Below, piece after piece: positions 30,539 to 31,781 of a DNA stretch of 31,781 nucleotides. A model generated the notes under the pieces. That model did no database searches and was not told the DNA's origin. It saw only the letters and a list, made by a program, of their open reading frames with translations. Source of the stretch: a virus; the IMG/VR virus record IMGVR_UViG_3300030108_002764, positions 1 through 31,781 of that record, one strand, 5' to 3'. Positions within the stretch are counted from its first letter, which is position 1. Every line of letters begins with the position of its first letter. The translations under genes and the position numbers were made by a program.

Positions 30539-30759
30539 TGAAATTTATAAGTGGCGAACAATTAAAATATAGAAAAGCTATAAAAGATGGTAAGGTTGTT
30601 GAAAAAACTAGAGACAACCTTATTACTATTCCTGATGGAACTACAATATCTTTTGGTGATATGATAGAAGATAGAGGTAGATATTCTATAGTAATGACTG
30701 TTGTTAAAGATTTTGGCAGTGGCAACGTATCTAAGTCAACAACACTAACTTTATCGTAA
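30538..30759 (+). CDS. Small hypothetical protein (73 residues)
   Basis: The product opens MKFISGEQLKYRKAIKDGK and has an internal beta-type stretch TIPDGTTISFGDMIEDRGRY, then SIVMTVVKDFG and a Ser/Thr tail. It looks like a compact beta protein without cysteines, signal peptide or membrane segment. Both ends overlap neighbours by TAATG, which supports a real, coupled gene. Function unknown; its company with a virion-type protein and a lysin suggests a late role. Confidence 0.55.
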   Translation: MKFISGEQLKYRKAIKDGKVVEKTRDNLITIPDGTTISFGDMIEDRGRYSIVMTVVKDFGSGNVSKSTTLTLS

Positions 30760-31061
30760 TGGCAGGAATATATAAAAGATTTGCAGGCGCAGCTAGTAAT
30801 CAATCTTTAATAACTAAAGGTAGTGGAGTAAGTGGTAATATTAGAAAAATATTAATAGCTAACGAAGACTCTGCTATTACTAAAGTAACAATTGATTTAC
30901 ACGATGGTTCAACTACTTTTGTTATAATAAAAGAAGTTGAAATACCAGTTAGCTCTTCGCTAGTATTATCAGATAATGTTTCTTTTGATAGTAATATTTT
31001 TAGTTTAAGAATAACAACGTCAGGTACAGGTACGCCTACAGTAACAGTAATAATAAAATAA
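30759..31061 (+). CDS. Small beta-sandwich-like virion protein, putative
   Basis: The 100-residue product opens MAGIYKRFAGAASNQSLITK and is then built of regular alternating strands (KILIANEDSAITKVTIDLHD; TFVIIKEVEIPVSSSLVLSD), ending SGTGTPTVTVIIK. I recall proteins with this 'YKRF...' opening and the 'IANEDS...V.I.L.DG' strand from many marine phages, where they are unannotated or called structural. Composition resembles that of the 111-residue protein at 49-384, although I see no convincing alignment between the two. TAATG overlaps both neighbours. A decoration or appendage protein is plausible. Confidence 0.55.
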   Translation: MAGIYKRFAGAASNQSLITKGSGVSGNIRKILIANEDSAITKVTIDLHDGSTTFVIIKEVEIPVSSSLVLSDNVSFDSNIFSLRITTSGTGTPTVTVIIK

Positions 31062-31669
31062 TGGAATTAAATAAAGACATAATAGAAAAAGCAGTAAAAT
31101 GCAAAGGTTATAGATGGTTTGAAAATGGTGATTATAACCTTAATATAGTAGGTATTAGAAACTCTGATACTGGAAATGAAGTAACAAATAAGTTTGACGA
31201 TAAAATAACATTGTCATTTAAGTGTGATGATCAATGGGAATTTTATTGCTATGACTGCACTACAGACCCAGGTAGATATTGGGTAGAAAATATAATGAGA
31301 GTAGAAGGCGTGGCAGTATTAAAAGAAGGACAGTTTCCTGGCTCACATAAAATTAGATTACATCAAGGTAGATATGAAGCGTTAGGTCAGTGTAGACCAG
31401 TTACAGTTTACCGTGATGCTAATAGAGACGGTAAGTTTGATTTAAGCGATGATAATACACAAACAGGTTTGTTTGGAATTAATATACATAGAGCAACAAA
31501 GTGGGGTGGTAAAAAATCTACTAAGGTAGATAAATGGTCTGCTGGTTGCCAAGTAATAGCAGCTAATGATGATTGGCACGAGTTTATGGATATATGTAGA
31601 GTTGCTAGAGATAAGTGGGGTAATAGCTTTACTTATACATTATTAGAAAGTAACGATTTAGATATATAA
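31061..31669 (+). CDS. Putative peptidoglycan-acting enzyme (L,D-transpeptidase/YkuD-like signature), candidate lysin
   Basis: The 202-residue product contains INIHRATKWGG, then VDKWSAGCQVIA: H143, sixteen residues, then S160-A-G-C163. This matches the spacing of the L,D-transpeptidase signature (H-x14-17-[ST]-H-G-C), with Cys163 as the likely nucleophile, but the His of HGC is replaced by Ala161. Upstream, D119-A-N121-R-D123-G-K-F-D127 looks like a calcium-binding loop. The N-terminal half has the pattern NLNIVGIRN ... TTDPGRYW, which I recall from a family widespread in Bacteroidota phages and prophages. There is no signal peptide, so export would need a holin or tail delivery. As a phage enzyme of this fold it more likely cleaves than cross-links the wall. 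Family fold moderately sure; activity inferred. Confidence 0.6.
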   Translation: MELNKDIIEKAVKCKGYRWFENGDYNLNIVGIRNSDTGNEVTNKFDDKITLSFKCDDQWEFYCYDCTTDPGRYWVENIMRVEGVAVLKEGQFPGSHKIRLHQGRYEALGQCRPVTVYRDANRDGKFDLSDDNTQTGLFGINIHRATKWGGKKSTKVDKWSAGCQVIAANDDWHEFMDICRVARDKWGNSFTYTLLESNDLDI

Positions 31670-31670
31670 A

Positions 31671-31781
31671 ATGAAACATTTATTATTATTATTTTTGCTA
31701 ATAAGTACTATAAGTACAGCACAAATAAAAGACTTCTTTAAATTTTCAACTTTCTATACATCGATGTCTATGAACACGTCG
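31671..31781 (+). CDS. Start of a secreted protein with a flavobacterial-type signal peptide (partial)
   Basis: The frame opens at 31671 one base after the lysin stop and runs off the window after 37 codons. The first 18 residues, MKHLLLLFLLISTISTAQ, form a clear Sec signal peptide: a Lys, a Leu/Ile core and a TAQ end typical of flavobacterial exported proteins. The mature part begins IKDFFKFSTFYTSMSMN. No lipobox cysteine is seen, so it is not an obvious outer-membrane spanin lipoprotein. Being exported from the infected cell and next to a lysin, it could act in envelope disruption or sit in the outer membrane. The rest is outside the window. Confidence 0.65.
   Translation, partial: MKHLLLLFLLISTISTAQIKDFFKFSTFYTSMSMNTS

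Follow-up and report, generated by a model that had tools for sequence, protein, structure and literature searches.

The window analysed here, by which we mean the whole stretch of DNA, is the 31,781-base record IMGVR_UViG_3300030108_002764, from a marine bacterial virus. Its terminase, portal, capsid and further structural genes match PHROG models, and the closest kin of the terminase and the major structural protein are found in podovirus-like phages infecting Flavobacterium or Cellulophaga and in the isolate ctfjg026. Just before the terminase, positions 1773-2354 hold an ORF with a match to phrog_13932 (E 1.3e-13), a family of phage GroES-like co-chaperonins. Towards the other end, a 2783-aa ORF is followed by three short ORFs and then by the gene of interest (31061..31669, plus strand), which begins with ATG and encodes a protein of 202 aa, P0001, considered a putative YkuD-fold endolysin on the basis of the translated ORF and a structure model. 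Its start is overlapped by 1 base by a 100-aa ORF on the same strand (30759..31061), which appears in the ORF list and has no PHROG match. Beyond it lies the start of another plus-strand gene (31671..31781), recognised from the ORF list, with a signal peptide apparent from hydropathy and its remainder cut by the window end. The counterpart of this gene in a related viral locus (L004, 5605-6645) is a similar 346-aa ORF with no Pfam match, and the two may encode an outer-membrane protein. The window is a genome fragment that stops 112 bases past the lysin gene, and no holin is recognisable in it. Hydropathy predicted neither a signal peptide nor a membrane segment in P0001 and its close relatives.

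Translation of 31061-31669 confirmed the residues singled out in an earlier sequence-only reading of this DNA, namely H143, S160-A-G-C163 and D119-x-N-x-D-G-x-F-D127. The putative catalytic histidine, H143 (31487..31489, plus strand), was assigned from its conservation and its position in strand 142-144 of the model, and is separated by 16 residues from S160, which opens the catalytic-loop motif S160-A161-G162-C163 (31538..31549, plus strand); alignment and conservation identify C163 within that motif as the putative nucleophile. Just before the strand bearing H143 is an acidic, EF-hand-like loop, D119-A-N121-R-D123-G-K-F126-D127 (31415..31441, plus strand), recognised from its sequence as a candidate calcium site. 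A further invariant residue, H101 (31361..31363, plus strand), was retained in 78/78, 8/8 and 3/3 of the proteins in the groups compared.

Conservation of these positions was assessed in sets of differing independence. Relatives in IMG/VR were gathered with peptide patterns that omit H143, S160-C163 and D119-D123, which avoids circularity; 80 proteins (the best 80 of 93) were taken and two truncated ones dropped, leaving 78. Eight annotated phage proteins found by tblastn formed a second set. H101, Y105, R118, D119, G139, N141, H143, S160, G162 and C163 were invariant in all 78 of the pattern-independent IMG/VR relatives (best 80 of 93, less two) and in 8/8 of the tblastn proteins. Position 161 was more permissive, with 76 Ala and 2 Glu among those 78 proteins of the best 80 and 6 Ala and 2 Leu among the eight. 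A broader alignment, A2, comprised 85 representatives of 224 sequences at below 78% identity, the start codons of its bacterial members being picked by rule and possibly wrong. Part of A2 was gathered with patterns containing FGINIH and SAGCQ, and its perfect counts for H143 and C163 are therefore partly imposed. Loss of Cys163 from relatives was one of two outcomes named beforehand as refuting the sequence-only reading; in the event Cys163 and His143 were kept in 78/78 and 8/8, and the sole exception was a copy on a Tolypothrix plasmid, with Ser at both positions, which on this evidence is probably a dead enzyme. That copy (L253, 2294-3106) also carries a possible, weak TAT signal (E 0.0067). 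Judged from the alignments, conservation of the motif residues exceeds chance.

The acidic loop is retained nearly as well. The pattern D119-x-[ND]-x-[DN]-x3-[DN] was present in 78/78 IMG/VR relatives (best 80 of 93, less two) and in 7/8 of the tblastn phage proteins, being absent from that of Bdellovibrio phage phi1422. Within A2, 83 of the 85 sequences have N or D at position 121, 83 have D or N at 123 and 83 have D, N or E at 127. D127 is replaced in all three plasmid copies, where the loop is incomplete. The D119-D127 segment resembles an EF-hand loop, and D119, N121, D123 and D127 are a possible calcium site; alternatively, D119 could be structural. The control by calcium put forward in the sequence-only reading is a stronger claim than the conserved loop supports, and some relatives do without the complete loop.

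Searches with sequence profiles placed P0001 in no family of described mechanism. No Pfam match was obtained; phrog_3000, of unknown function, matched residues 39-198 (E 8.3e-35), and phrog_33083, labelled endolysin, matched more weakly (E 7.2e-14) through the C-terminal part of its profile, neither PHROG family being labelled with a fold or a mechanism. The YkuD model PF03734 scored over its cut-off in 0/85 members of A2 and reached an E value of up to 1 in 2/85 (best 0.0091). In profile-profile comparison with YkuD there was no whole-domain match, only the SxGC loop being aligned (probability 6.9 and 2.9); the register of the profile alignment places SAGC on the [ST]xGC loop of YkuD. No credible match was found in NCBIfam or in a single-sequence search against solved structures. 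Nanobody matches obtained in profile searches of solved structures (E 0.01-0.8) were judged to be due to chance. Searches of an open-access library brought up no paper describing the P0001 family.

Structure prediction was more informative. An AlphaFold model of the window protein, built from 85 sequences, had a pLDDT of 97.3 and a pTM of 0.93. Foldseek against the PDB gave no match at E 0.001 for this model, the best YkuD row being Pgp2 at rank 10 (E 0.34, prob 0.51). When the same candidates were realigned with VIA-align, ranks 1-37 were all YkuD-fold chains (Z 9.2 to 5.9), the next chain scoring Z 2.6; among them were Pgp2 (Z 9.2, rmsd 4.0, 128 residues aligned), Csd6 (9.1), Bd1075 (8.7), DpaA (7.9) and Tlde1a (5.9). 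A second AlphaFold model drew on 33 bacterial sequences and on no sequence found in the viral scans; its pLDDT was 94.4. With this model VIA-align ranks 1-46 were all YkuD-fold chains (Z 9.5 to 6.1, next 2.2; Pgp2 9.5, DpaA 8.2), and Foldseek placed DpaA first (prob 0.99, E 0.011), followed by 4xxt, a Clostridium entry (0.85). An uncultured marine phage supplied the third BFVD match to the window model, a protein named "Lysin" (E 9.8e-15). Transpeptidases fill most rows of these structure lists, and the hydrolases Pgp2, Csd6 and DpaA are among the highest. The YkuD-like fold anticipated by the sequence-only reading is thus borne out by two models that match YkuD-fold chains only until Z falls below 3, and because both do so, a YkuD or L,D-transpeptidase-like fold is well supported as a prediction for P0001 despite the missing whole-domain profile match.

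The family is widely distributed. By tblastn, 26 of 50,697 phage records carry relatives, in crAss-like phages (such as crAss002 and 'Rudgehvirus jaberico'), in Bacteroides phages DAC16 and SJC03, in Pseudoalteromonas phages ACA1 and ACA2, in Bdellovibrio phage phi1422 and in very large uncultured phages; the relative in one crAss-like record is labelled a peptidoglycan-binding domain protein. Scanning IMG/VR with P0001 as query yielded 93 relatives and with an alignment as query at least 588 confirmed stretches, the best 80 being analysed in each case. Bacterial and archaeal genome contigs supplied 128 relatives (best 80 analysed), and 9 of 72,556 plasmid records match. The class had been described as one of Bacteroidota phages, which is too narrow in view of the relatives in Pseudoalteromonas and Bdellovibrio phages and at gammaproteobacterial loci. 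Five of the contigs carrying the gene (L161, L163, L164, L188 and L223) have been assigned by binning to Woesearchaeota, Nitrosopelagicus, Nanoarchaeota, Tenericutes and Acholeplasmatales. These groups are not known to have murein, and for that reason the five contigs are judged to be probably misbinned phages.

The loop motif itself is less peculiar than it appeared. SAGC had been presented as a variant of the L,D-transpeptidase signature, yet when three bacterial genomes, reached through loci with the P0001 family, were searched with PF03734, the loops of the 11 matches over cut-off read SHGC (5), TVGC (2), SSGC, SAGC, TAGC and TNGC (1 each). As only 5/11 have SHGC, the histidine of HGC is no constant feature of the fold; SAGC is an ordinary form of the loop, and this variety also ruled it out as a defining signature. 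The HGC histidine is absent from P0001, where Ala161 takes its position. In Tlde1a the corresponding residue, H129, is proposed to orient D-Ala4 (PMC9638812), and its absence from P0001 may entail a different substrate pose. Two residues beyond the cysteine, all 85 members of A2 have Val (V165 in P0001) rather than the Arg that is a mark, not a universal one, of L,D-transpeptidases. The account of DpaA in PMC10653827 describes the Arg of many L,D-transpeptidases as replaced at this position (Ala145, for Cys143) and the pocket as having one entrance, as in L,D-carboxypeptidases. L,D-endopeptidase and amidase activities are both described for YkuD enzymes in PMC12729407, which attributes the former to LdtCd2 and LdtCd3 of C. 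difficile; there is thus precedent for cutting cross-links with this fold, and by analogy P0001 may cut them as these two enzymes do.

The genomic surroundings of the relatives also bear on lysis. Neighbours were counted at 143 of 147 distinct viral loci, leaving out two with truncated proteins of at most 185 aa (L041, L046) and two with partial matches (L122, L136), and the holin search model was built from the lysin-adjacent gene of four relatives. Against the Pfam model GTA_holin_3TM, the copy at L017 scored 24.2 bits (cut-off 24.8) and that at L217 63.7 bits. Among the viral loci of the best-80 scans with at least 1 kb downstream, a GTA_holin_3TM-like gene lies directly 3' of the lysin gene in 28/129 and does not in the other 101; for the closest viral loci (L001-L035 and L077) the figure is 11/29. 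Where such a gene is present it nearly always adjoins the lysin gene (34 of the 35 viral loci containing one). In 30 loci it comes immediately after the lysin gene and in 3 immediately before it; one further copy lies about 100 bases downstream, and the last is elsewhere in the stretch.

In bacterial loci (best 80 of 128) the gene is paired or fused with wall-hydrolase domains: Amidase_2 is fused N-terminally in 3/80 and encoded directly upstream in 21/80, Pfam having confirmed the domain for one such upstream gene. SLT and PG_binding_1 are fused to a P0001-type domain in a plasmid-encoded protein of Rhizobium jaguaris, and PG_binding_1 is in one of Methylobacterium currus. No Amidase_2 was seen fused or adjacent at the viral loci of the best-80 scans. 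Seventeen of the 80 bacterial members (L170, L172, L174 and 14 more; best 80 of 128) end in a hydrophobic segment, often with a basic tail, as if membrane-anchored, and most of these have Amidase_2 directly upstream.

A particular case is that of Pseudoalteromonas phage ACA1, whose gp35, a "hypothetical protein", is a relative encoded between the tail tube and tail chaperone genes. P2-like lysis genes usually lie among the tail genes, and the authors who described ACA1 state in PMC10612066 that a lysis module is absent from its tail genes and that its endolysin was unidentified. We propose that gp35 is the missing endolysin. By ORF order, loci in Moritella and Pseudoalteromonas luteoviolacea have a similar gene setting. 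The lysin role suggested by the sequence-only reading thus gains support from gene context, through holin adjacency, amidase fusions and pairings, and the position of the ACA1 gene.

We also searched 18 virus records carrying the gene for eight other lysin families (Amidase_2, Phage_lysozyme, SLT, M15_4, GH19, M23, GH108 and Amidase_3). SLT scored over cut-off in three records (L037, L128 and L138), with M23 in L037 too, and none of the eight families did so in the remaining 15/18; the GH19 and GH108 searches gave no control match, so that absence of these two carries no weight. In the larger phages with SLT (3/18 records) the lysin gene may be accessory. Two near relatives of the window phage by structural genes are annotated with other enzymes: elemoA 7-9A has a D-alanyl-D-alanine carboxypeptidase, and in ctfjg026 a peptidase M15 is annotated upstream of the terminase. 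One lysin may therefore have been exchanged for another.

The bonds that endolysins cleave are as a rule glycan, amide or peptide bonds, and the enzymes draw on a few well-known folds. The ORF, the predicted fold and the conserved Cys and His were computed for P0001, and holin adjacency and wall-hydrolase fusions were observed in its relatives; for the window phage itself we infer a role in lysis. We consider it probable, with some reserve, that P0001 is a holin-released, YkuD-fold endolysin, or one of the lysis enzymes, which hydrolyses bonds of the stem peptide. The soluble protein would stay in the cytoplasm until a holin opened the inner membrane. C163, as the putative nucleophile, with H143 as its putative base, would then attack the bond following the L-centre of the meso-diaminopimelate at position 3 in the stem peptide. 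The acyl-enzyme would be resolved by water and not by a second stem peptide, so favouring hydrolysis over transpeptidation. As a result 4,3 cross-links would be cut (L,D-endopeptidase), stems would be trimmed (L,D-carboxypeptidase) and the wall would fail; calcium may have some part in this.

Other functions of such a fold were weighed against this reading. The protein might detach rather than lyse, acting like DpaA as a YkuD-fold amidase that frees outer-membrane proteins or lipoproteins from peptidoglycan and aids disruption of the outer membrane while another enzyme cuts the wall; DpaA is, after all, ranked first by Foldseek for the model built on bacterial sequences, scores Z 7.9-8.2 in both models and likewise lacks Arg at Cys+2. 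Yet 15/18 records have no other lysin of the eight families over cut-off; the fusions and pairings, moreover, involve wall hydrolases, and the specificity of DpaA is reported to depend on loop residues of its own. We regard such a detaching role as unlikely. That the phage instead encodes an L,D-transpeptidase for reshaping the host wall in the course of infection, perhaps to strengthen it or to exclude other phages, would suit a fold family made up mostly of transpeptidases and the retention of H143 and C163, and seems quite improbable when set against the Val at Cys+2, the holin adjacency in relatives, the domains found paired with it (amidase, transglycosylase), and the lack of an apparent signal peptide, which would put the wall out of reach before the holin opens.

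The same holin adjacency argues against a virion-borne wall hydrolase acting at entry and not at exit, a function we think very improbable, even though the window gene comes just after structural genes and the ACA1 relative lies between tail genes; the notes of the ACA1 record cite detection by mass spectroscopy for some proteins, gp35 not among them, a weak argument in that many of those notes are incomplete. Finally, the loss of both His and Cys from the Tolypothrix plasmid copy might point to a YkuD-like fold without wall activity, such as a binding module, and the invariance of H143, S160, G162 and C163 in phage copies (78/78 and 8/8) makes this extremely improbable for them.

DpaA (LdtF/YafK), the peptidoglycan-lipoprotein amidase of E. 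coli (PDB 8ikr), has in common with P0001 a YkuD-type fold and the lack of Arg at Cys+2, but is a bacterial housekeeping enzyme with conserved loop residues of its own, whereas P0001 is a phage protein with an acidic loop; the comparison is one of structure, in contrast to the absence of whole-domain sequence similarity between P0001 and YkuD profiles. The L,D-carboxypeptidases Pgp2 (6xj6/6xj7), Csd6 (4xzz) and Bd1075 (7o21) head the VIA-align lists, with Z from 8.7 to 9.5, and are bacterial cell-shape enzymes with 14-18% identity to P0001 over about 130 aligned residues; Csd6 and Pgp2 are treated as L,D-carboxypeptidases in PMC9638812 and PMC10653827. With the L,D-transpeptidases (PF03734, LdtMt2, Ldtfm and YkuD of B. 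subtilis) P0001 has in common the fold, the order of His then Cys and the [ST]xGC loop, but it differs in going unrecognised by PF03734, in having Val for Arg at Cys+2 and in lacking the HGC histidine. Since membership of the L,D-transpeptidases or of PF03734 is not borne out by these comparisons, we do not file P0001 under either.

The sequence-only reading had also held that L,D-transpeptidases are usually not phage lysins. This is correct as a generality, and needs amending in that YkuD is already listed as a rare class of phage lytic domain, with 10 entries in the PhaLP table (PMC8310338); a YkuD domain is also mentioned in the description of one 15-domain gut lysin in PMC13284279. Those domains were found by known models, whereas the P0001 family is missed by Pfam and occurs in at least 588 IMG/VR stretches. 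YkuD as a rare lytic domain was therefore already known, and what is new is a divergent and widespread phage version.

A more far-reaching proposal is that these proteins form a large, Pfam-missed class of endolysin that has converted the YkuD fold from building walls to cutting them. Many marine flavophage-like and crAss-like phages would rely on it as their main enzyme for exit, and ACA1 and similar phages would owe to it the endolysin they seem to lack; it would act as an L,D-endopeptidase, switched on outside the cytoplasm by calcium held in the loop that precedes the catalytic His. Taken as a whole we hold this to be doubtful, if worth stating. If true, the exit enzyme would be identified for many uncultured marine and gut phages, ACA1 included, and the YkuD fold would serve as a lysin on a large scale. 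The family poses a clean question, that of why one fold cuts rather than joins, and an endolysin cutting at the L-centre of diaminopimelate would, if confirmed, be useful for cell-wall analysis.

Some viral loci hold a further gene pair near the lysin gene, in which a one-TM coiled-coil gene overlaps a gene for a secreted thioredoxin-fold protein (L004, 7330-7674 and 7671-8060; L012, 1036-1711; L030, 5954-6702). Of 87 viral loci, 35 have the coiled-coil gene within 3 kb of the lysin gene and 38 the thioredoxin-fold gene, and in loci with both they are adjacent for 59 of 62 thioredoxin-like matches. A phage-borne reductant for C163 had been considered for the secreted thioredoxin-fold neighbour, and was dropped when CxxC proved absent from 65 of 72 of these proteins, which have NxxN instead. 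The two genes possibly constitute a new spanin-like pair.
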